NCBI GenBank assembly: GCA_021324355.1
Contig: JAJPJD010000057.1
Location: 1-64,000, forward strand
Origin: Actinomycetota bacterium
GTDB taxonomy: Bacteria; Actinomycetota; Acidimicrobiia; Acidimicrobiales; RAAP-2
Length of the DNA: 64,000 bases
Reading direction: 5' to 3'
Each line of letters begins with the position of its first letter. Position 1 is the first letter of the stretch. A program made the position numbers and the translations under genes. Below, piece after piece: positions 2-46,473 of this stretch. Below the pieces are notes generated by a model that saw only the letters and a list, made by a program, of their open reading frames with translations, was not told the origin of the DNA and did not search any database.

Positions 2-601
2 GACCCCGAGCTGGCATCCCGGCTGCGCACCCTGCGCCTCCACGGGATGAGCGCCGATGCCTGGCGCCGCTACGAGGTCGCCGGCAGCTGGCGCTACCGG
101 GTCGATGCGCTCGGCCTCAAGGCCAACTTCACCGACCTGCAGGCGGCGATCGGCCGGGCCCAGCTCCGCTCCCTCGGCGCTTGGCAGGCCCGGCGGGCCG
201 AGCTCGCGGCCCGCTACGACGCCGCCCTGGTCCGGATCCCAGGAGTCCAGGTGCCACCCCGGCCGTTCCGGGCCGTCCACGCCTGGCACCTCTACATCGT
301 CCGCATCCACGAGGAGTTCGGTCGCACCCGAGACGAGGTCATCGACGAGCTGGCCGCCCGGGGGATCGGGACCTCGGTCCACTTCATCCCGGTCCACCAC
401 CACTCGGTCTTCCGCCGGCTGCTCGGTGCCGAGGCGTGCTCGGACCTGCCGGTCGCCGACCGGCTGTTCCCGAGCCTGGTGTCCCTCCCGCTGTACCCGA
501 GCATGTCCGACGACGACGTCGACCGGGTCTGCCAGGCCCTCGACGACCTCCGAACCCGATCCCGCACCGTGAGCACAGGGAGCACCCGTGGAACTCCATG
601 A
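2..601 (+). CDS. DegT/DnrJ/EryC1/StrS-family sugar aminotransferase, C-terminal part
   Basis: This is the C-terminal half of a PLP-dependent nucleotide-sugar aminotransferase; the reading frame is open from base 2, so the true start lies before the window. The visible part begins with the family-typical stretch RLRTLRLHGMSADAWRRY, followed by the GLKANFTDLQAAIGRAQL segment that packs at the dimer interface, and later VHFIPVHHHSVF and LPLYPSMSDDDVDRV near the end, all standard for this family. The PLP-lysine region is outside the window. Such enzymes aminate keto-sugars for surface polysaccharides, which fits the downstream O-antigen ligase, flippase and sugar transferase. Its 3' end overlaps the next gene by 14 bases. 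The family is clear; the exact sugar is unknown. Confidence 0.9.
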   Translation, partial: DPELASRLRTLRLHGMSADAWRRYEVAGSWRYRVDALGLKANFTDLQAAIGRAQLRSLGAWQARRAELAARYDAALVRIPGVQVPPRPFRAVHAWHLYIVRIHEEFGRTRDEVIDELAARGIGTSVHFIPVHHHSVFRRLLGAEACSDLPVADRLFPSLVSLPLYPSMSDDDVDRVCQALDDLRTRSRTVSTGSTRGTP

Positions 602-2048
602 CCTCGACGTCACCGTCTTAGGCCGGGACCTCACCCGCCAGCACGCCGGCGCGGACTTCACCGTCTTCGACAGCGAGCACGCCCCGGCGGACGACCGGCT
701 CATCGAGACGCTCCGCACCGGGACCGAGGACATCGACCTGGCGGCGTCGCCGGTGGTCCTGCCGGACTTCTGCCACAAGGAGAAGTCCGAGATGCCCTCC
801 AGCATCGCGGTCGCCACCAAGGACGCCATCCGGCCCACCCTGACCGACGCCGCCCTCAACTGCGGGATGGCGCTCATCACCTTGGACGTGGAACGCCCGC
901 CCGAGCGCGCCGTCAGCGACTTCTACCGCAAGGTGGTGGAGCGGTTCCCCAACCCGCCCACCTGGCGGCGGGACCTGAAACGTCACGAGGTCCTCCGGGC
1001 GGCGGTGGAGGGAGCGGACTTCGCGGCCGAGCGCTACGACTTGGACCAGGCCGACCTGGACCGGATCGAGGAGCGGGGCCGGATCCCCATCGACGACCTG
1101 GGCGGCGCCCCCCAGGCGATGCGGGACCTGCCCTGGCTGGTGGTCCAGATGAGCCGGCTCCGCTTCGGCTCCATCGGCCCGAGCACCCACTTCCTCGAGA
1201 TGCAGCAGGTGGAAGAGGTCCTCGACCCGGTGGCGGCCGAGCGCCTGGGCATCCACCAGGGCCAGGTGACCATCCAGTTCCACAACGGCGGCGGGGTCCT
1301 CACCGGCCAGCTGGGGGCGCTCTACGCCCGCCGCAAGAGCGCGTCCCGGCTGCTGCGGGCCGAGATGTCGGTGCAGCGGCCGCTCAGCCACCTGGCCACC
1401 GCCCGCTCGATCGGCGACATCAAGCGCCGGCTGGCCATGTTCTTCGCCGAGGGGTGCCCGTCCATCCCCACCGACCATGAGGACGGCCGACGGGCCCTCT
1501 TGGCCACCCGCCTCGCCATGAACTACGGCTTCGCCTACCGGATGGCCACCTACGCCGCGCTCCGGGACATCGCCCGCCAAACCCTGGGGTCGGCCACCCG
1601 GCTGGTGGTCGACTCCCCCCACAACTCCATCTACCAAGAGGAGGTCGACGGCCAGGCCGCGTTCGTCCACCGCCACAACGCCTGCCGCGCGTGGCCGGCC
1701 GAGATGATGGCCGGCCACCCGGCGTTCGCCGAGACCGGCCAGCCCCTGCTCCTGCCGGGGACCAACCGGACGTCGTCCTACCTGTGCCTGCCGGCCGACG
1801 GCGCGCACCGCAGCCTCTACACCGCCTGCCACGGCTCGGGCAGCATCATCTCGGCGTTCGAGCGGACCGGCCGCTCCGGCCCCGACCCGCTGGCCCGGAC
1901 CACCGCCCGCTACCGCTACGACGGGGCGGCGCCCCGTCACGTCGCGCACCTCGACGACAACGGGGTGAACGAGGCGCTGCGGATCCTCACCACCTACGGC
2001 CTGGTCCGGCCGGTCGCCCGGATGCGGCCGTTCGCGGTGCTCACATGA
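588..2048 (+). CDS. Divergent RtcB-like (RNA 3'-phosphate ligase fold) protein
   Basis: A 486-residue protein that follows the order of RtcB motifs: LPDF near residue 58, a NCGM segment (normally D-x-x-C-G) near 92, GSIGPSTHFLE (normally G-x-x-G-x-G-N-H-F-x-E), FHNGGGVLTGQ (normally H-S-G-S-R-G), AMNYGFAYR, SPHNSIYQEE (the H-N-x(4)-E motif), HRHNACRAWP, PGTNRTSSYL (normally P-G-S-M-G-T-x-S-Y) and ACHGSGSI (normally H-G-A-G-R, whose His carries GMP). The metal-ligand Cys and His positions and the guanylation His appear kept, while the Asp before the Cys, the Asn before the His and the Arg after H-G-x-G are changed. In known RtcB these residues bind Mn and GMP for RNA ligation. The GTG start has GGGAG upstream. 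It lies inside a polysaccharide operon with overlaps on both sides, so its substrate may not be RNA; that is inference. Confidence 0.75.
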   Translation: MELHDLDVTVLGRDLTRQHAGADFTVFDSEHAPADDRLIETLRTGTEDIDLAASPVVLPDFCHKEKSEMPSSIAVATKDAIRPTLTDAALNCGMALITLDVERPPERAVSDFYRKVVERFPNPPTWRRDLKRHEVLRAAVEGADFAAERYDLDQADLDRIEERGRIPIDDLGGAPQAMRDLPWLVVQMSRLRFGSIGPSTHFLEMQQVEEVLDPVAAERLGIHQGQVTIQFHNGGGVLTGQLGALYARRKSASRLLRAEMSVQRPLSHLATARSIGDIKRRLAMFFAEGCPSIPTDHEDGRRALLATRLAMNYGFAYRMATYAALRDIARQTLGSATRLVVDSPHNSIYQEEVDGQAAFVHRHNACRAWPAEMMAGHPAFAETGQPLLLPGTNRTSSYLCLPADGAHRSLYTACHGSGSIISAFERTGRSGPDPLARTTARYRYDGAAPRHVAHLDDNGVNEALRILTTYGLVRPVARMRPFAVLT

Positions 2049-2443
2049 AGAGCCTCGCCGCCACCGCCGACACCTGGGCCATCCTGCTGCCCCCCGACAC
2101 CGCCTGGGTCGGGCGCGGCCAGGACGAGCCCGAACGGCCCGATCCCAAGCAGGCTCGACGGGCGGTGGTCGCCTCCCCCTGGGCGCTGCGCCGCCGGGCC
2201 GAGGGGGGTGCCCGGCGGACCTACATCGCCTTCCCGTCGCGCGACCAGCCGCTGTTGGTGACCAGCCACGACCCGGCGGTGCTGCGCTACCTGACCGACT
2301 CGGTCCTGTCCACCCCGCCCGGCGTCGGGGGCCTGTCGGGCCTGGTGATGACGGTGGGCCGGCGGTTCCTGCGGCGCAAGGGCACCTGGCTGCTGGCGGC
2401 GTTGTTCGGGAGCGCCGGCGTGGTGTCGGTGGAGACCCGATGA
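2045..2443 (+). CDS. Small unknown protein in the polysaccharide operon
   Basis: A 132-residue product that I do not recognise. The ATG overlaps the stop of the RtcB-like gene (ATGA), and its own stop overlaps the start of the kinase gene in the same way, which supports translation from 2045 rather than from a longer in-frame opening. The N-terminus (TWAILLPPDTAWVG) and a later YIAFPSRDQPLLVTSHDPAVLRYL stretch look like a compact alpha/beta domain; the C-terminal part is basic (GRRFLRRKGTW) followed by a short hydrophobic run (LLAALFGSAGVVSV) that could touch the membrane. Position between an RtcB-like protein and an APH-fold kinase suggests that the three act together, but no function can be assigned. 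Confidence 0.65.
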   Translation: MKSLAATADTWAILLPPDTAWVGRGQDEPERPDPKQARRAVVASPWALRRRAEGGARRTYIAFPSRDQPLLVTSHDPAVLRYLTDSVLSTPPGVGGLSGLVMTVGRRFLRRKGTWLLAALFGSAGVVSVETR

Positions 2444-3453
2444 CCATCTCGATGGTCACCGGGCGCCGTCCCCTCTACGACCTGGTCGACGACGTCCACG
2501 GCCGGGTGGCCTGCCTGGCGTTGTCCAAGGACCCCAACGCCAAGATCACCGTCTTGTTGTTCCCGCCGGGGTCCGACGCCCCCGGCTTCGTGGCCAAGGT
2601 CCCCACCACCGACACCGCCGCCGCCAGCGTGCGGCTCGAGGCGAGCGCGCTGGCGGCGCTCGATCGGGCACGCCTCGGCCCGCTGGAGGGAACCGTCCCT
2701 CGGGTCACCACCTTGGCCGAGCACCAGGGCCGGCCGGTCCTGGTCACCACCGCGCTGCCCGGCCAGGTGATGCTGGCCAGCTACCACCGCTGGCACCACA
2801 CCGCCCGCCCCGCGGCGGTCGAGGCCGACTTCGAAGCCGCCGGTCGGTGGCTGGCCGAGCTCCACGAACGCACCGCGCGGGGCCACGGCGACCTGTCGCT
2901 GGTGCTCGACGGGGTGGGGGACGCGCTGGTGCGCCGCTACCGCGACGACCCCACCACCGCCAAAGACCTCGAGCTGGTGGCGGCCCTCCAGGCCCGCCTG
3001 GCTGGCCACCAGGCCCCCCGGGGCTTGGTCCACGGCGACTACTGGGTCGGGAACCTGCTGGTAGCCAAGGGCCAGGTATGCGGGGTCATCGACTGGGAGC
3101 GCTGCCAGCCCGACGGCCTGCTCACTCGGGACCTGGCCCGCTTCGTGATCGGCTACTCCCTCTACCTGGACCGCCACACCCGGCCCGGGCGGCGGGTGGC
3201 CGGCCACCACGGCCTGCGGGCCGGCGAGTGGGGGGCCGGGGTGCAGTACGCGCTGGACGGGGAGGGGTGGTACCCCGAGCTCGCCCGGTCCTTCGTGGCC
3301 AAGGGGCTGGAACGCCTCGGTCTTTCGGCCAGCTGCCTGCGCGACGTGGTCCTGGCCGAGATCGCCCGGATCGCGGCCGAGGCCGACCAGGACGACTTCG
3401 CCCGGGGCCACCTGCGGCTGCTGCGCCGCCTGTGCACGCCGGAGGCCGGGTGA
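2440..3453 (+). CDS. APH-fold phosphotransferase
   Basis: A 337-residue small-molecule kinase of the aminoglycoside phosphotransferase/choline kinase superfamily. The catalytic Brenner loop is visible as LVHGDYWVGNLL around residues 192-203 (H-G-D-x(4)-N) and the metal-binding motif as GVIDWERCQPDG just after. The N-lobe holds a FVAKVPTTDTAAASVRLEASAL segment with the usual Lys and Glu. The ATG overlaps the preceding stop (ATGA) and the GTG of the O-antigen ligase overlaps this gene's stop. In a polysaccharide operon it may phosphorylate a sugar, an aminosugar or a lipid-linked intermediate; the substrate cannot be read from sequence. Confidence 0.85.
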   Translation: MTISMVTGRRPLYDLVDDVHGRVACLALSKDPNAKITVLLFPPGSDAPGFVAKVPTTDTAAASVRLEASALAALDRARLGPLEGTVPRVTTLAEHQGRPVLVTTALPGQVMLASYHRWHHTARPAAVEADFEAAGRWLAELHERTARGHGDLSLVLDGVGDALVRRYRDDPTTAKDLELVAALQARLAGHQAPRGLVHGDYWVGNLLVAKGQVCGVIDWERCQPDGLLTRDLARFVIGYSLYLDRHTRPGRRVAGHHGLRAGEWGAGVQYALDGEGWYPELARSFVAKGLERLGLSASCLRDVVLAEIARIAAEADQDDFARGHLRLLRRLCTPEAG

Positions 3454-4790
3454 GCCTGCGCACTCGCCTGGACACCCTGCCGCCGCTCCCCGCCCTCCCG
3501 GCAGGGACCCTCGAGCGGGGGCCGACCTCGGAGCGGGTCCGCAAGACCGAGCGCCGGGCCATGGTGGCGCTCACCGCGGCGTTCATCTTCCAGCCCATCC
3601 TGCACCCGACCGGGCCGGCCAACAGCTCGCCGGTCGACCTTTTGCTCATCGTCTCGGTGGTGCTGTTCGGCATCTGGGCCTGGCGCGAGCCGCGCCGGAT
3701 CCACGCCCCCTACCTGCTGCCGGTGGGCCTCATGGTGGCCGCCGGCGCCGCCTCCGGCATCACCAGCCAGTTCCCGAGCGCCGCCATCCAGGCCCTCCTG
3801 GTCGACGTCTTGTTGTTCGCGTGGTGCACCACCGTCACCAACGTCGTGTCGGAGCCCCGCACCTTTCGCTACGTGCTGTCGGCGTGGGCGCTGTCGGGGA
3901 TCGCGTGGGCCGCGCTCGTGGTGGTGGCCTGGCTCGGTCACATCACCGTGCTGGAGGGGTTGAACGCGGCCGACGGGAACCGGGTGCTGTTCACCTTCGG
4001 CGACCCCAACTACGCCTCCACCTACTGGCTGACCACCCTGTTCGTGATCTACGCGATGCAGCGGCCGGCGACCCGCTGGCTTCGTTTCGCCGGCTACGCG
4101 GTGGTCTTCTGGGCGCTCGTGCTGACCGAGTCCAACGGCGGGTTCCTCTCGCTCGCCATCGGCATCGCGTTCGTGGTGCTGGTCACGATCTACCGCCGCC
4201 GGGGCTGGGCCGGGCTGGTCGCGGCGGTGCTGGTGCTCGGGTTGGCGGTGGCGAGCTTCCTCACCGTCCTCCCGCTCAACACCCTGCGGGAGAAGGCCCT
4301 CTACAGCAACCAGCCGATCCTGGTGAACTCGATCGGCCGCAGCGCCCAGAGCTCCTCGGAGCGCTCCGAGCTCATCTCGGAGATGGGCCAGCTCTACGAC
4401 CAGACCAACGGCCTGCTCGGGATCGGGCCCGACGCCACCAAGCCCACCTTGACCGCCCAGCTGGCGGTGTACCCCAACGAGGCCCACGACGACTACCTGG
4501 CTGCCCTGGTCGAACGGGGCCCGCTGGGGCTGCTGGGCTTGCTGATCCTGGTCGGCTCGGCGGTGCTGTGGGCCGGGCCACTGGTCCGGGGCCGGGTCTC
4601 CCGCCGTTTCGCCGAGGTCATCCCGATCCCCCTCGGGCTGGCCGCCGGCCTGCTCGCGCTGGGCGTCAACTCCTTCTACGAGGAGATCCTCCACTTCCGC
4701 TTCTTGTGGTCGCTCCTCGCGATCGTGGCCGTCGTCGGCCGGGACTCCAAGCAGGCAGGCACCGATGCGCATCTTCGACAGCCAACGTGA
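3450..4790 (+). CDS. O-antigen ligase/polymerase-like membrane protein
   Basis: A 446-residue multi-spanning membrane protein started at the GTG that overlaps the kinase stop (GTGA). About ten to twelve hydrophobic segments are visible, with a long external-type loop around residues 280-350 ending in PNEAHDDYLAALVERGPLGLLG, which matches the Wzy_C/O-antigen ligase signature (H-x-x-Y-L followed by a G-x-x-G-L-L-G helix). Such proteins polymerise or transfer lipid-linked glycan repeats at the outer face of the membrane. The gene precedes the flippase-transferase fusion and overlaps it by 26 bases, so export, polymerisation and chain initiation are encoded side by side. The family is firm; polymerase versus ligase cannot be told. 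Confidence 0.85.
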   Translation: MSLRTRLDTLPPLPALPAGTLERGPTSERVRKTERRAMVALTAAFIFQPILHPTGPANSSPVDLLLIVSVVLFGIWAWREPRRIHAPYLLPVGLMVAAGAASGITSQFPSAAIQALLVDVLLFAWCTTVTNVVSEPRTFRYVLSAWALSGIAWAALVVVAWLGHITVLEGLNAADGNRVLFTFGDPNYASTYWLTTLFVIYAMQRPATRWLRFAGYAVVFWALVLTESNGGFLSLAIGIAFVVLVTIYRRRGWAGLVAAVLVLGLAVASFLTVLPLNTLREKALYSNQPILVNSIGRSAQSSSERSELISEMGQLYDQTNGLLGIGPDATKPTLTAQLAVYPNEAHDDYLAALVERGPLGLLGLLILVGSAVLWAGPLVRGRVSRRFAEVIPIPLGLAAGLLALGVNSFYEEILHFRFLWSLLAIVAVVGRDSKQAGTDAHLRQPT

Positions 4791-6744
4791 GCGACTGCGA
4801 GGGGCCGGCACCGGCATCGTCGCCCGCTCCTCGCTGACCAACCTGGGGGCCCAGGGCGGTGCCCTGGCCTCGGTCACGGTGGCCAGCCTGCTGGTCGCCC
4901 GGTTCGGGGGGCCGACCGTGGTCGGCGAGTACGCCCTGTTCCGGGTCCTGCCGTGGCTGTTCGGGGTGGTCTTCTCGGTCGGCCTCCCGACTGCCTCGGC
5001 CTTCTTCCTGGCTGGCGAGCACGCAGAGGACCGGGATCTGCGCCCCACCCTGATCCTCATGGCGGTCGTGGGCGCGAGCGTGGGGGCGGTGGTCTGGATG
5101 GGGTGCGCCGGGGCGTTCCACGCCCTGTTCTTCCGGCACGTGCCCATGCCGGTGATCATCATCATGGCCCTGTGCGTCATGACCCAGCTGCTCACGGTGA
5201 CCGCCAAGGGCTGCTGCCAGGGGTCCCACGACATCGCCGGGGCCAACCTGGTCATCGTGGCCGAGGAGCTGTGGTTCGTGGTCTGCTTCCCGGCGGTGGT
5301 GATCCTTGGCCACCTCCAGTCGATCGGGGCGGTGGCGGCCGGCCTGATCGGCTCGGGGATGCTGGCCACCGGGACCGGAGTGGTCCGGCTGGTCCGGATC
5401 GGCTTCTTCGACGACCTGGGCCGCCCGTCGGCCGCCCTGGCCCGCCGGATCGCTGCCTTCGGGGGCCGGGGCCAGTTCGGCAACCTGTTGTGGCTGACCA
5501 ACCTGCGCTTCGACTTCATCCTGCTCGGCGCGCTGGCCGGCCCGGCGGTGCTCGGGGTGTACTCGATCGCCTCGAAGTTCGCCGAGCTGATGCGGCTGGC
5601 CCCGACCGCCCTCAACTACGTCTTGTACCCCCGATTCGCCCAGCTGGGCCGGGAGCGGGCGGCCCGGTTCTCCCGGTCGCTGTTCCGAAAGGCCCTCCTG
5701 CTGACGGTGGCCCTCACCCCCCTGGTCGCCCTGGTGGCGCTGTTCGGCCCCCACCTCCTCTACGGCGCCGCCTTCGCCGGCGCGGTCACCCCGGCCGAGA
5801 TCATCATCCTCGGGCTGTCCGTCGAGGGCGCGGCCGCGGTGGCCTCGGCCTACCTCCTGGGCACCGGCCGGCCCGGTCTCAACTCGCTCGGGATGGGGGT
5901 GGGGGCGGTCCTGACCGTCGGCCTCGACGTCGCCCTCATCCCCCACTACGGCGCCCTGGGGGGCGCGATCACCTCGGCCGTGGTCTACGCCACCACCACC
6001 GTCACCCTCTCGCTCATCGCCTCCCGGCTGGCGGCCCGAGACCTGGGGGGGACCCACGCCCGCCTCGAGCGGGCGGTCGTCGGGGCCGACACCGCGCTGC
6101 GCCGGGTGATCGACGTGGTGGTGGCCACCGTCGGGTTGGTGCTGGCCGCCCCGGCCATGGCCGTCATCGCCCTGGCGGTGCGAGCGACCAGCCCCGGCCC
6201 CGCCCTCTACCGCCAGCTCCGGGTGGGCCGCGGCGGCCGGCCGTTCGTGCTGTTCAAGTTCCGCTCGATGGTGGTGGGGGCCGAGCGGCTGGGCGGCTAC
6301 CTCACCCAGCGCGACGACCCCCGGGTCACCACGGTGGGGAGGATCCTGCGGGCGACCAAGCTCGACGAGCTCCCCCAGCTCCTCAACATCGTGCGGGGGG
6401 ACATGACCCTGGTCGGCCCCCGTCCCGAGGTCCCCTACTTCGTCCGCTGGTACCGCCCCGAGGAGCTGGCGGTGCTCTCGGTGCGCCCGGGGCTCACCGG
6501 CTGGGGCCAGATCGTCTACCCCGGCGACCACGTGAACGGACGCGGCGACCGCCCCGAGGTGGAGTCCCACTACCTGGTCCACCAGCTCCACCAGAAGCTG
6601 CTGCTCGACCTCGCCTACCTGCGCCGGCGGGGACTCTGGGCCGACCTGGCCATCATGGCCAAGACCCTGGGCGTCGTCGTGCGCAACGCCCGCCAGGCAC
6701 TGCTCCGGACCCGCGGCGCGCCGCGCTCGGCCCCCGGGCTCTGA
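4765..6744 (+). CDS. Fusion: Wzx/MATE-type flippase plus undecaprenyl-phosphate sugar-1-phosphate transferase
   Basis: A 659-residue two-domain protein. Residues about 1-430 form a twelve-to-fourteen-segment polysaccharide flippase (starts with [20 protein letters not shown]; includes [15 protein letters not shown] and [12 protein letters not shown]). Residues about 448-650 form a complete bacterial sugar transferase (WbaP/WcaJ C-terminal type): one hydrophobic segment, then [62 protein letters not shown] and [10 protein letters not shown], all the usual catalytic blocks. One polypeptide would both prime the lipid carrier and flip the finished repeat unit; separate genes are the norm. No stop or frameshift separates the halves. 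It is the last gene of the operon, and its stop lies 3 bases from the end of the convergent regulator. Confidence 0.9.
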
Positions 6745-6747
6745 TCC

Positions 6748-9699
6748 CTAGGCGCTGCGCCCGGTGACCAGCCGGGTCGGATCCGCCCCTGGACGACCGG
6801 CTGGCGAGGTGAGGCGGCGGAGCTCGTCGCGGGACTGGACCCCGAGCTTCTGGTAGACGCGCGACAGGTGCCCTTCGACCGTCTTGGTGGTGACGAACAG
6901 CAGCTCGGCGATGCGGGCATTGGTCATGCCGGCGGCGGCCAGATCGGCCACCCGCCGCTCCGAGGGGGTGAGCGAGTCGGCCCCCGAGAACGCCAACCGT
7001 CGGGGCCGGGCGCCGCTGGCTCGCAGCTCTCGCAGCGACTGCTCGATCAGCCAGGGGGAACCGCAGCGGACCGCCAGGTCGGCCGCCTGGCGCAGGGCGG
7101 TGCGGGCAGCCACCGGGCGATCGGCCACCCGCAGGGTTCGGCCGAGCTCGAGGGTGGTCCGGGCCAGCTCGAGCGACGGCCCGGCCGGCTGCAGCACGGT
7201 CACCGCCTCGTCCAACAGGGCCAGCCGCTCCACCGGCTCCACCACCTCGGCCATCACCGCCAGCGCGGCGCCGACCACCGCCGGGGCCCCGAAGGCCCGG
7301 GCCAGGCTGAGGTTCTCGCTGGCCAGCTCGTGGGCGTCCCGGGCGCTGCCAAGGGCGGCGCTGGCCCGCGCCGCCCCGGCCCGCCAGCCGGTCACGGCCG
7401 GGTTGCGGACCCCCCACTCCTCGGCCAGCTGGCCGGCCAGGCGGAAGTCGCCCAACGCCGCCTCACCCTCGCCGACCACGGCGTGGACCTCGCCCCGCAG
7501 TTCGAGCGCCCACAGCTCGGCGAGCGACCCAGCGTGCCGGGCCGACCGGCTGGCTCGGTCGAGGAGCTCGGCCGCCTCGGCGGGCTGACCCAACTCCAGG
7601 GCGACACGGGCCGCCACCACCTCGGCCCGGCCGTCGTGGGGCGGCGCCGCCAGCACCGGGCCCAGCGTCGCCTCGGCCTCCCGCAGCTGGCCGGCGGCCA
7701 GCTGGCAGCGGGCGACCACGGTCCCAAACGCGGCCTCGGCGCCGGTCCGTCCCAGCCGTCGGGCGACCTCTTGGGCCGACCGGGCCAGGGGCTCGGCCTG
7801 CGCCCAGGCACCGGCCCGTGCCGCTGCCTCCAGCGCCCGGACGGCGGCGTCGACGGCGGCATCGTCGGCTCCCTCGAGCTCCTCGACCCGGACCGCCCCC
7901 AAGGCGATGGCGGCCAGCTGGGCGGCCGCCATCCGGTCCGGGACGAGCTCCCAGCACGAGCACAGCACGGCCAGGGCGGTGCGCTCCTCCGGGCTGCGCC
8001 CGGCCAGCCGGCCGCCCAGGACCTGCTCGAGCGCCGGCGCGACCTCGAGCACGCCGCGCACCGTCGGGTCGAGCTGGGCCAGGCGCGCCCCCAGCCGGAG
8101 CCGCAGCGCCGGGTCGTCCCCTTGGCCCAGACCGGCCGCCGCCGACCGCAGCACCGCCAGCGCCCCCTCCGGGGCCGCGCCAGCCAGCTGGTGCACGACG
8201 TCGAGCGCCGCCTGGGCGTAGTGCGCCGGCTCGACCGCGGCCTCGGCTGCGTCGCGCAGCCGCCCCAGCGCCTCGGTGGAGCCGGCCGCCGCCTGGTGAC
8301 GAGCCAGGGCGACCAGGATCGAGCCTCGCTGGTCGGCACTCGGTGGCTCGGCCAGCGCCCGCTCGAGTAGCGCCGCCGCCCGCTCGGGATTCCCGGCCGC
8401 GGCAGCCAGCTCGGCCCCCTGGACCAGGCGCTCGGCCCGCCAGGCCTCGCCCAGCGGCTCGCAACGGGTCAGGTGCTCGGCCACCACCGCAGCCGGTGCA
8501 CCGTGGTCGTCGAGCAGTCGGGCCGCCTCCGCATGCAGGGCGGCCCGACTGGCCGGCCCCAAGTCGCCGTAGGCGGCGGCCCGCTCGAGCGGGTACACGA
8601 ACCCCAACGTGCCGTCCCGGGTCACGATGCCGGCCTCGGCCAGGGCGTCGGCTGCCGCCCGGGCGACCTCCAGGTCCATGCCGGCCAGCTCGGCCGCCTC
8701 CCGGATCCCGGCCCGGCCCTCGAGCACCGCTGCCGCCTGCGCCAGGCGGTAGGCACCCTCTGGGAGGCCATAGGTGCGATGCAGCAGGGCCCGCACGACC
8801 TGGGGCGGCACCGCCTGGTCCACGACCGAGGCGGCCCGGGCGGCGTCGGCCGGCCCAGAGGCTCGCAACCAGCTCAGCAGCGCGAATAAGAGGAACGGGT
8901 TGCCGACGGTGGCCCGGTAGCAGGCGGCCGCCAGCTCGGCCACCCCCGGCTCGGCGAACTGCTCGGCCACCAGCTCCCCCACCGCGCCCGCGCTGAGGGG
9001 CTCGAGGACGAAGGTCCGGGTCGCCGGGTCGGCCACCACCCGGTCGACCGCCACGGTGGCCTCGGTGCCCGAGCGCCCGAGGGTGCTCCCGATGAGCCAT
9101 ACCCGGCGGTGCGCCAGGCGACGGGAGAGGTACTCGAACCACTGTGCCGAGGCTGGGTCACACCACTGCAGGTCGTCGATCGCGATGACCAACGGCTGGT
9201 GTTCGGCCAAGAACGCGACCGCCCGGGAGAACTCGTCGAAGACATGCGGCAGGTCGGCATCGCCGGCCGGGGCGGTGCCGGCCAGGACCCCCGAGCCGAG
9301 GGTCTCCAGGCACTCGCGGCGGCGGTCCGGCTCGAGCAGCGCGAGGAGGTGCTCGAAGAGCTGGCGCACCACCGAGAAGGGGTAGGCCGCTTCGAGCTGG
9401 CTGCCCCGGGCGCTGAGCACGGCCAGCCCCTCCTCCCTGGCCAGGTGGCACGCGGCGTTGACCAGCGCGGTCTTGCCCAGGCCGGGCCCACCCTCGATGA
9501 CGATGGGCCCCGGGCGGCTGAGCCCCCGGAAGGTGGCCACCAGCTCGCCGAAGACGCTCTCTCGCTCTCGAAGCCTCGGCCGGCCGGCGCCGTCGGGGCG
9601 GTCGGTGGCCCGGCCGGGCACCGCCGGCGGGGGACGGCGGTCGAACAGTACTGCCGCGCTGGGCTGAACGCCACGTCCCCGATCGCTCGGGCTGGTCAT
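6748..9699 (-). CDS. LAL-type LuxR regulator with ATPase domain
   Basis: A 983-residue regulator. The N-terminal third holds an NTPase with Walker A GGPGLGKTALV and Walker B VIAIDDLQWCDPAS; the middle is a long run of Ala/Leu/Arg-rich helical repeats (TPR-like); the C-terminal 65 residues are a LuxR helix-turn-helix beginning LTPSERRVADLAAAGMTNA and containing TKTVEGHLSRVYQKLGV. This is the MalT/LAL architecture in which a ligand and ATP trigger assembly on DNA. I chose the start at 9699 over the longer opening at 9744 because GGTAGGAG lies 6-8 bases before this ATG. It converges on the polysaccharide operon, with which it may or may not be functionally linked. Confidence 0.9.
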   Translation of the reverse strand: MTSPSDRGRGVQPSAAVLFDRRPPPAVPGRATDRPDGAGRPRLRERESVFGELVATFRGLSRPGPIVIEGGPGLGKTALVNAACHLAREEGLAVLSARGSQLEAAYPFSVVRQLFEHLLALLEPDRRRECLETLGSGVLAGTAPAGDADLPHVFDEFSRAVAFLAEHQPLVIAIDDLQWCDPASAQWFEYLSRRLAHRRVWLIGSTLGRSGTEATVAVDRVVADPATRTFVLEPLSAGAVGELVAEQFAEPGVAELAAACYRATVGNPFLLFALLSWLRASGPADAARAASVVDQAVPPQVVRALLHRTYGLPEGAYRLAQAAAVLEGRAGIREAAELAGMDLEVARAAADALAEAGIVTRDGTLGFVYPLERAAAYGDLGPASRAALHAEAARLLDDHGAPAAVVAEHLTRCEPLGEAWRAERLVQGAELAAAAGNPERAAALLERALAEPPSADQRGSILVALARHQAAAGSTEALGRLRDAAEAAVEPAHYAQAALDVVHQLAGAAPEGALAVLRSAAAGLGQGDDPALRLRLGARLAQLDPTVRGVLEVAPALEQVLGGRLAGRSPEERTALAVLCSCWELVPDRMAAAQLAAIALGAVRVEELEGADDAAVDAAVRALEAAARAGAWAQAEPLARSAQEVARRLGRTGAEAAFGTVVARCQLAAGQLREAEATLGPVLAAPPHDGRAEVVAARVALELGQPAEAAELLDRASRSARHAGSLAELWALELRGEVHAVVGEGEAALGDFRLAGQLAEEWGVRNPAVTGWRAGAARASAALGSARDAHELASENLSLARAFGAPAVVGAALAVMAEVVEPVERLALLDEAVTVLQPAGPSLELARTTLELGRTLRVADRPVAARTALRQAADLAVRCGSPWLIEQSLRELRASGARPRRLAFSGADSLTPSERRVADLAAAGMTNARIAELLFVTTKTVEGHLSRVYQKLGVQSRDELRRLTSPAGRPGADPTRLVTGRSA

Positions 9700-43486: not shown

Positions 43487-44515
43487 TCAGCTGTCAGCCG
43501 TCGACCCCTGGCCAGCTGGAGCCGGTTCGGCCGACTGGCCAGCGAGCACCGCGCGCTCGGCGTGGTGGCAGGCAACGAGGTGGTCCTCGCCCACCGGCCG
43601 AAGTTGGGGTTCGACCCGCTGGCACACCTCGTCGGTCCACGGGCAGCGGAGTCGGTAGGGGCACCCACCGGTGGCCGGAAGAGCGTCGTCGACCGCGGCG
43701 CCGGCGAGAGCCCGCCGCCTGGACCTTCGCTCCCGCTGACGGGCCGGGTCGGGCACCGGGACGGCGGCGAGAAGTGCCTGGGTGTAGGGGTGCGACGGTG
43801 ACGTCGAGACCGAGGAGGCGTCACCGACCTCAACCAAGCGTCCGGCGTACATGACACCGATTCGGTGCGAGACGTGTCGGACGACCGAAATGTCGTGGGA
43901 GATGAAGAGGTAGGCGACTCGGGTCTGGCGCTGGAGGTCGACCAACAGGTTTATGACCTGAGCTTGCGTTGAGACATCCAAGGCCGTAACCGGCTCGTCG
44001 CACACGACCAGACGTGGCGTAGGGGCCAGTGCCCGGGCGATAGCGGCTCGCTGGTTCTGTCCTCCCGAGAGCTGGTAGGGAAGGCGGCGAAGCATTCCGG
44101 GCGCCAAGCTCACCTTCTCGCCAAGGGCCTCCGCCGCCCTGGTGCTCGCGTCCCGCTTAAGACGTTCGTGAATCCGCAGGGGTTCGCGGAGCGTATCTAG
44201 GACCAGCCGGGCCGGATTGAGCGATCCCGTTGGATCCTGGAAGACCACCTGAGCCTTCTTGCCCTGTTCGATCGCTGCTCGGAGGGCCAGGTGCTGGACA
44301 GGCCCTCCATCGACCAAAATCCGGCCGGACGCTGGCCTGACCAGCCCTAGCACTGCCCGGCCAACCGTCGTCTTCCCGGACCCGGACTCGCCAACCAGTC
44401 CGAACGTCGTTCCTTCCTCGATCTGCAAGCTCAGCCGGTCGACGGCGACCACTCGACCACGGCGCCGACGGCCATAGACCACTGTCAGGTCTTCGACCAC
44501 CAAGACGCTGCTCAT
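43487..44515 (-). CDS. Oligopeptide-type ABC ATPase (OppF/DppF)
   Basis: A 342-residue ATPase: Walker A VGESGSGKTTVGR, Q-loop VFQDPTGSLNP, signature LSGGQNQRAAIARAL, Walker B LVVCDEPVTALD, H-loop ISHDISVV, then the oligo_HPY tail with clustered cysteines (GGCPYRLRCPWTDEVC and later ACHHAE) that carry a 4Fe-4S cluster in some homologues. The ATG overlaps the stop of the upstream fused gene (ATGA). The last gene of the importer operon. Confidence 0.93.
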   Translation of the reverse strand: MSSVLVVEDLTVVYGRRRRGRVVAVDRLSLQIEEGTTFGLVGESGSGKTTVGRAVLGLVRPASGRILVDGGPVQHLALRAAIEQGKKAQVVFQDPTGSLNPARLVLDTLREPLRIHERLKRDASTRAAEALGEKVSLAPGMLRRLPYQLSGGQNQRAAIARALAPTPRLVVCDEPVTALDVSTQAQVINLLVDLQRQTRVAYLFISHDISVVRHVSHRIGVMYAGRLVEVGDASSVSTSPSHPYTQALLAAVPVPDPARQRERRSRRRALAGAAVDDALPATGGCPYRLRCPWTDEVCQRVEPQLRPVGEDHLVACHHAERAVLAGQSAEPAPAGQGSTADS

Positions 44516-46473
44516 CGCACGGCCTCGACCGTCCGGAACTCCTCGGCTCGGATGCACCTGGTGAGCGACCCCTCCACCGGACGCAACGAGGGCATCTCCC
44601 CGACGCAGATTGGCCCGGCATGTTCGCAGCGGTCAGCGAAGCGGCACCGGTCTTTAGGCCACGACTCGGCGGGCGGAACCTGGCCTGGGATCCGGGCCAA
44701 GGACGCACCGGGCATCACCGATCCGGGCAGCGTCTCAAGCAAGCGCTGGGTGTAGGGATGACGAGGGGTCGAAAACAGCTCGTCAACCGCGGCCGATTCC
44801 ACCACCTGACCTGCGTACATAACCAGCACCTTGTCGCAGATGTCGGCGACCACTCCCAAGTCGTGGCTCACGAAGATCATGGCCATCCCGAGCTCGCTAC
44901 GAAGCTCCGCCAGCAGGTCCAGGATCTTGCCCTGCACGGTCACGTCGAGGGCCGTGGTCGGCTCGTCGGCGATCAAAAGATCGGGTGAACAGGCGAGCGC
45001 GGCTGCAATCATGACCCGCTGGAGCTGGCCGCCCGAGAGCTGGTGTGGATAGTCGTGCGCTCGCTCGGATGCTCGCGGCAGCTTGACCTGGTCCAAGAGC
45101 TCGACGGCCCGCGACCAGGCCTCGCGCCGGGACAATCCAAGATGGAGTCTGAGGGGTTCGCTCACCTGGTTCCCAATGCTGAACGCGGGATCCAGGGATC
45201 CCTTGGGGTCCTGGAAGATCATTCCGACTTCCTTGCCTCGCACACTGTCCATCTGGCGGTCCGTCAGCGCCAGCAGATCCCGACCATTGAGGATGACCTG
45301 GCCGCTGGCGATCCGGGCGCCCGTCGGGAGGAGCCGGATGATCCCGAGCGCGGTCATGGACTTTCCACAGCCGGACTCGCCGACGACACCAATCGTCTCG
45401 CCCCTCCCCAACTCGAACGTCACATCGTCGACGACCGTGACCCCAGGGTCTGTACCCACAGACACCCTCAGCCCTTCCACCACCAAGACTCGGTCCGGCC
45501 GGGGCTGGGAGTCGAGAGAGCGGGGGGCCACTCGGGCCGCTCTGGTCCGCCACCTCGAGGCTCGGGCCGCCCGGCCTCGACTCTCCCGACCCCTGACCAG
45601 GGCACTGCGTAGGGCGTCGCCAATCAGCTGTGCCGAAAGCACGGTCAGCAGGATGGCCATCCCGGGTGGCACAGCCAGGAATGCATCGTTGCCGATTTGG
45701 GATCGGGCATCGGTCAGCATAGAGCCCCAGCTCGCCTGGGGAGGCTGCACGCCGAGTCCGATGAAGCTCAACGCCGCCTCAAACAACAGCATGTGAGCAA
45801 AGGCCAGCGTCGCCTGGACCACGATGGGCCCGAGGGCGTTGGGCAGGATCTCCCGGAACAAGATGTGGGGAGTCGACTCGCCAACGACCCTCGCGCCATC
45901 GATATAGGGCTGCTCACGTACCGCCAGAACGACACCACGGGTGAGGCGGGCGAACCCGGCGGAGGCCAAGAACCCTAGCGTGATCATTGCGTGGTCCAGG
46001 CTGGGGCCAAGGGCTCCCACTACCGCGATGGCCAGGACTAGACCGGGCAAGGCGAGCACCGCATCCACCACGCGCATGGCGACTCGGTCCCACAATCCGC
46101 CCACGTATCCGACTGCGAGGCCAACGGGAACCCCAATCCCGACGGCGACCCCCACGCCGATCGCCGCCGCCGGTAAGGCCACCCGGCCAGCAAAGATCAG
46201 CCGGCTCAGGGTGTCACGGCCGAGGTTGTCAGTCCCTAGTAGATGGTGCCAGGACGGTCCTGCGAAGACGTGGAGGAGGTTCTGGGCGTTCGGGTCGTCT
46301 GGGGCAACCCATGGTGCGAAGATTGCCGTCACCACCACCAAGGCCATCCAAAGGGCGCCAGCCATGGCAAGCGGCTGGCTCCTGAAGGTCCGGACGACGC
46401 GACGCAAGGCGTGATCGGTAACGATGCTCGACTGGGAACCAGCGTCGACTTCTGGTGCCGGGACCAGGCTCAC
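44512..46473 (-). CDS. Fused DppC-type permease and DppD-type ATPase
   Basis: A 653-residue fusion. Residues about 30-300 are a DppC-type permease with six membrane helices ([52 protein letters not shown], the EAA loop). After a 30-residue Arg-rich linker, residues about 325-645 are an ABC ATPase: [60 protein letters not shown], and a cysteine-bearing oligo_HPY tail ([16 protein letters not shown]). GTG start overlapping the DppB stop. The fusion fixes the ratio of one permease and one ATPase half; it is known in some actinobacteria. Confidence 0.93.

Follow-up and report, generated by a model that had tools for sequence, protein, structure and literature searches.

The window, by which we mean the whole stretch of 64,000 nucleotides that was analysed, forms the start of contig C54 in a genome of 2.45 Mb (96% complete). 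Near its beginning, in the row of genes listed in Table 1, lies a single uninterrupted frame of 659 amino acids that runs from ATG to TGA. Residues 39-294 of its product matched the Pfam family PF01943 (Polysacc_synt; 35.6 bits against a cut-off of 28.2), and residues 446-639 matched PF02397 (Bac_transf; 194 bits against a cut-off of 27). The preliminary description of this DNA had claimed that one frame encodes a complete flippase of the Wzx type together with a complete initiating-transferase domain, and the Pfam matches, the WzxE profile described below and the lack of any interruption bear this out.

The same fusion was found at full length, with no stop codon or frameshift and with 69% identity, in two further species known from metagenome-assembled genomes (MAGs), DAHUZT010000118.1 (an Acidimicrobiaceae MAG; hereafter L032) and JAJYVS010000023.1 (an Actinomycetes MAG; hereafter L033). 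Absence of the fusion from relatives, which the preliminary description had considered as an objection, was therefore not what we observed. The genome of the window has a single fused gene. In all three species the fused gene starts 26 nucleotides before the end of wzy, and the genes on both sides of it are syntenic in L032 and L033. Divergence in the flanking genes is similar to that in the fusion, which fits inheritance in place and not a recent artefact.

Table 1. Features of the fused gene and its surroundings in the window.
Feature	Position	Strand	Evidence
DegT/PseC-type aminotransferase gene, 3' end, cut by contig start	2..601	+	PF01041; complete in L033 and L137
RtcB-like gene	588..2048	+	PF01139, 143 bits; 79-81% identical in relatives' clusters
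Small cluster gene, 132 aa, no family	2045..2443	+	homologue in relatives
APH-fold kinase-like gene	2440..3453	+	PF01636
Wzy polymerase/ligase-type gene	3432..4790	+	PF04932 (Wzy_C); end overlaps fused gene by 26 nt
Fused gene, Wzx-type flippase and small monotopic phosphoglycosyl transferase	4765..6744	+	one open frame; PF01943 and PF02397; orthologous fusions in L032 and L033
Flippase half, residues 1-420 (domain to about 425), 12 predicted helices	4765..6024	+	WzxE profile and fold match
Linker, residues 421-443, Arg-rich	6025..6093	+	alignment of three fusions; dN/dS up to 0.58
Transferase half, residues 444-640: re-entrant helix with P463, FKFRSM, DE dyad, RPGLTG	6094..6684	+	PF02397; WbaP/PglC alignments; model
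Codons of catalytic dyad D534-E535	6364..6369	+	aligned with LDELPQL motif of WbaP; invariant in 31 sequences
LuxR/AAA regulator gene, convergent, conserved neighbour	6748..9621	-	PF00196 and PF13191 in L033 homologue; synteny

In the two relatives, the upstream part of the cluster comprises a Wzz-like gene (assigned by eye, with no Pfam match), a CapD/FlaA1-type dehydratase gene, an HprK-like gene (a weak match) and a GT4 gene. It then continues through the DegT/PseC-type aminotransferase, RtcB-like, small-protein, APH-fold kinase and Wzy genes to the fusion and the convergent LuxR/AAA gene. Neither a separate flippase gene nor a separate transferase gene turned up in this cluster of the relatives, and the fusion therefore probably supplies both functions there. 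The small gene of 132 residues gave no Pfam or NCBIfam match. The RtcB-like gene, a relative of RNA ligases amid glycan genes, was also observed at L137:9492-10952, L147:3967-5403 and L148:9263-10699. The APH-fold kinase, together with the HprK-like protein (L137:6104-7099; weak NCBIfam match), might phosphorylate a sugar or a carrier.

The only other match to the query in the genome of the window was a separate transferase on contig C58, a large phosphoglycosyl transferase (PGT) with the CoA_binding_3 domain. Since this contig also encodes a separate PF01943 flippase, the same cell has an unfused pair at another locus. The plasmid search returned no record covering 80% of the query.

The two halves of the fused protein

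By sequence and predicted fold, the N-terminal half is a complete 12-helix flippase of the Wzx/MOP type. A profile of the three fusions and their relatives could be aligned over almost the full length of WzxE (profile 12-402 on chain 3-403; E 2.5e-13 for 9g95), and TacF was also matched. Two structure models were used, neither of which shows both halves well: the transferase half was read from the first and the flippase half from the second. The flippase half of the first model was disregarded because flippase-only rows were misaligned in its alignment, and the transferase half of the second model was poor. In the second model, pLDDT was about 70-90 for most of residues 16-425; the best Foldseek matches of this model were WzxE structures (TMt 0.77-0.79). 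The 12-helix MOP fold, the architecture stated for Wzx in PMC13385700, is present in the predicted structure, while hydropathy alone gives 11 clear peaks.

The likeness to WzxE (PST family of the MOP superfamily; PDB 9g95/9g9n) comprises the 12-helix fold and the full-length profile alignment, and it extends to a key arginine, an Arg-rich C-terminal tail and an adjacent wzy gene. The fusion differs from WzxE in bearing a C-terminal transferase domain, and the identity in structural alignment is about 20%. In an approximate residue mapping, E274 aligns with D262 of WzxE and R60 with R44, which has been reported to be essential (PMC11706664); the other charged residues of the WzxE cavity have no partner in this mapping. 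The Arg-rich C-terminal tail of WzxE adjoins the cytoplasmic entrance and is likewise essential (PMC11706664).

The C-terminal half, judged from its sequence and its model, is a full-length small PglC-like monotopic PGT with the catalytic motifs. It covers positions 1-178 of the 179 positions of PF02397, that is, the full length of the family. The FKFRSM motif (F497-M502) is invariant, as is D534-E535, and GPRPE and RPGLTG were also found. In the first model the pLDDT of this half was mostly 77-98, with dips; Foldseek matched it to PglC (TMt 0.74-0.77) and also to WbaP (8t53). As in PglC (a small monotopic PGT; PDB 8e37/8g1n), there is only a catalytic core with the re-entrant helix, the FKFRSM motif and the DE dyad, but PglC stands alone whereas the fused domain is attached to a flippase.

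The preliminary description had labelled this half "WbaP/WcaJ-type", a label that fits the catalytic domain only. The catalytic domain is indeed homologous to that of the large monotopic PGTs WbaP and WcaJ (PDB 8t53, 9s7s). In contrast to these enzymes, however, the fusion has no N-terminal 4-helix bundle and no CoA_binding_3 domain by Pfam, the flippase standing in their place, and its scores with the NCBIfam WcaJ and WbaP models were far below the cut-offs. The closest relatives of the transferase half are mostly free-standing small PGTs in frames of 200-258 residues. In a tree of 119 rows, the three fused domains formed one group within the small-PGT clade (support 99/90), on another branch than WbaP and WcaJ and apart from the large PGT encoded on contig C58.

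The twelve helices of Wzx put both of its termini in the cytoplasm. The even number of helices predicted for the flippase half leaves the transferase on the cytoplasmic side, which agrees with the orientation considered in the preliminary description.

Purifying selection acts on both halves, the dN/dS values being 0.12-0.23 (flippase) and 0.19-0.38 (transferase), with dS near saturation in the pairs that include the window. The linker of about 20 residues is the only loose stretch, and its length and sequence vary among the three fusions.

Distribution and origin of the fusion

L033 is the genus relative G003, and L032 corresponds to G807, of the same family and with a different genus code. 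Within this family the fusion has a rare and patchy occurrence, being present in 3 of the 172 genomes; it is therefore dispensable for this type of pathway. With the flippase query, no further fusion was found among the matches listed in 397 genomes of the order. The same held among the matches listed in 396 genomes of the phylum and among the 77 PGT loci listed from all phyla. About 300 transferase matches listed from Bacteroidota and Bacillota likewise included no flippase fusion. Since fusions of a polytopic PGT with a large PGT were recovered in that survey, it was able to see fusions. The rarity is to be read as a lower-bound statement that applies among the matches listed, high-GC frames being unreliable.

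Several candidates were rejected. Four frames of at least 600 residues in Bacteroidota and Bacillota (L161-L164) have no flippase. Two of them, in Bacteroidota (L161:2519-5011 and L162:2523-5006, about 830 residues), combine a polytopic PGT (PF00953) with a large monotopic PGT, and L163 is a large PGT whose N-terminal extension is spurious. The fourth, in Bacillota (L164:1104-2930), shows partial ATP-grasp matches before the PGT domain, and a separate flippase gene adjoins it. In L055 and L100, which seemed to be partial fusion matches, the flippase is a separate gene, and an open frame of 621 residues in G485 overlaps a DegT gene in another frame.

L032 and L033 are 85-95% alike over the region and are closer to each other than either is to the window, yet only L033 and the window have a genus code in common. 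This observation may reflect the genus codes or a local transfer.

Among the matches listed in the 396 genomes of the phylum, the nearest flippases are those of three members of other families, G456, G479 and G491 (41-43% identity, about 42%). These genomes carry the flippase, a PIG-L deacetylase gene and a small PGT in a row; they resemble the fusion in having the small transferase near the flippase but differ in that the genes are separate, with the PIG-L gene between them (L147:2007-2987, L146:8856-9722). In common with the fusion cluster, the clusters of G479 and G491 also have GT4, RtcB-like and APH-like genes, and that of G456 has GT4, Wzy and DegT genes. The RtcB-like proteins of G479 and G491 are about 49% identical to those of the fused lineage. 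No close PIG-L copy was found near the fusion.

The fusion probably arose within a cluster of this flippase/PIG-L/small-PGT kind. A clade of the fused PGTs and the neighbouring PGTs of these unfused cousins was not rejected by the AU test (p 0.49, lnL difference 0.02), and the tree itself shows no such clade. The simplest history is that the PIG-L gene was lost and its neighbours were joined. It is also conceivable that the small PGT of the fusion was swapped in from another source.

Possible roles of the fusion

Monotopic PGTs fused with other domains of the pathway form an accepted class, the Bi-PGTs, which is named in PMC10942596 with reference to O'Toole 2021. In this class a pathway protein is fused to the transferase core, and here too a functional domain is carried on the PGT core; the partner differs, being a flippase in the present case. 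The partners in the survey of O'Toole 2021 reportedly comprise enzymes that modify sugars, glycosyltransferases, regulatory domains and polytopic PGTs. No report of a fusion between a flippase and a PGT was found in the open-access literature, a scope outside which that main survey lies. A flippase thus appears to be a new partner for a monotopic PGT.

We consider it likely that the fused gene encodes a bifunctional membrane protein of a Wzx/Wzy-type cluster, in which priming and export are held at one place. The transferase half would prime undecaprenyl phosphate with a sugar phosphate, the sugar possibly being a 4-amino-4,6-dideoxy sugar produced by the dehydratase and the aminotransferase of the cluster. 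The GT4 of the cluster would then extend the primed lipid, and the flippase half would export the lipid-linked unit to the Wzy polymerase. The transferase is attached to the C-terminal tail of the flippase half, and in WzxE this tail is situated at the cytoplasmic mouth of the transport path; priming would therefore take place beside the export entrance and in a 1:1 ratio. This might keep the priming of carrier lipid from outrunning its export. It is suggested in PMC11706664 that a block in flipping does harm by trapping undecaprenyl phosphate.

The preliminary description had proposed that the fusion couples priming to export at one site. In this sense the protein might be a single-chain unit that keeps the transferase tethered beside the cytoplasmic mouth of the flippase. 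One complex would then carry out both the first and the last cytoplasmic step of a Wzx/Wzy pathway, and carrier lipid would be committed only at places from which export is possible. We put this forward tentatively from comparison with WzxE. Priming and flipping are not consecutive, since at least one glycosyltransferase step is expected between them (the GT4 of the relatives' cluster), and this intervening sugar addition speaks against such coupling. The variable linker argues against a rigid interface, and the rare and patchy occurrence within the family also weighs against this interpretation.

It is worth noting that a neutral origin has about the same standing, so that neither explanation can be put higher than a possibility. 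The loss of a gene between joined neighbours would have left two domains that work as before, with equal dosage as the only gain at most. The row of flippase, PIG-L and transferase genes in the unfused cousins is consistent with this explanation, as are the variability of the linker and the rarity of the fusion. However, three species have kept the fusion, with a difference of about 30% between their versions of this protein and with both halves constrained.

It seems improbable that one half has lost its activity and does no more than anchor or scaffold the other. WzxE residues R239, R282, R315 and K326 have no direct counterpart in the flippase half, the alignment being approximate, but R60 and E274 are kept and the catalytic motifs of the transferase are complete. 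The low dN/dS in both halves and the absence of any other flippase or transferase from the relatives' cluster also argue against an inactive half.

The hidden internal start that the preliminary description had considered could yield the halves as separate proteins, as could proteolysis in the linker, whose variability would allow for it. We regard this as very improbable. An in-frame ATG or GTG is present at residue 448 in all three fused genes, but neither this codon nor any other in-frame start codon at the junction is preceded by a convincing ribosome-binding site in any of the three species, and a start at residue 448 would remove the basic residues before the re-entrant helix.

An error of sequencing or assembly, suspected in the preliminary description and conceivable for a gene near the start of a MAG contig, is refuted for practical purposes by the orthologues L032 and L033, two independently assembled MAG species with the same fusion, and by the lack of a frame change at the junction.

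The bifunctional protein is the preferred reading. Since separate proteins make only weak contacts, it is difficult to test whether a Wzx/Wzy pathway forms a physical assembly all the way from priming to export. An initiator and a flippase joined in nature provide direct evidence of the Rosetta-stone type that both steps can sit together. The fusion would indicate that a single chain at the cytoplasmic side can carry both activities in working, or at any rate tolerated, form. It also offers a stable single protein for structural work and for testing whether export limits priming.

Two further observations concern other parts of the window. At 44512-46473 (- strand), an OppC-type permease and an OppD-type ABC ATPase are encoded in one frame (PF00528, PF00005 and PF08352). 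Over positions 34000-64000, from about 34 kb onward, the GC content drops from about 0.73 to about 0.65 and the codon usage shifts.
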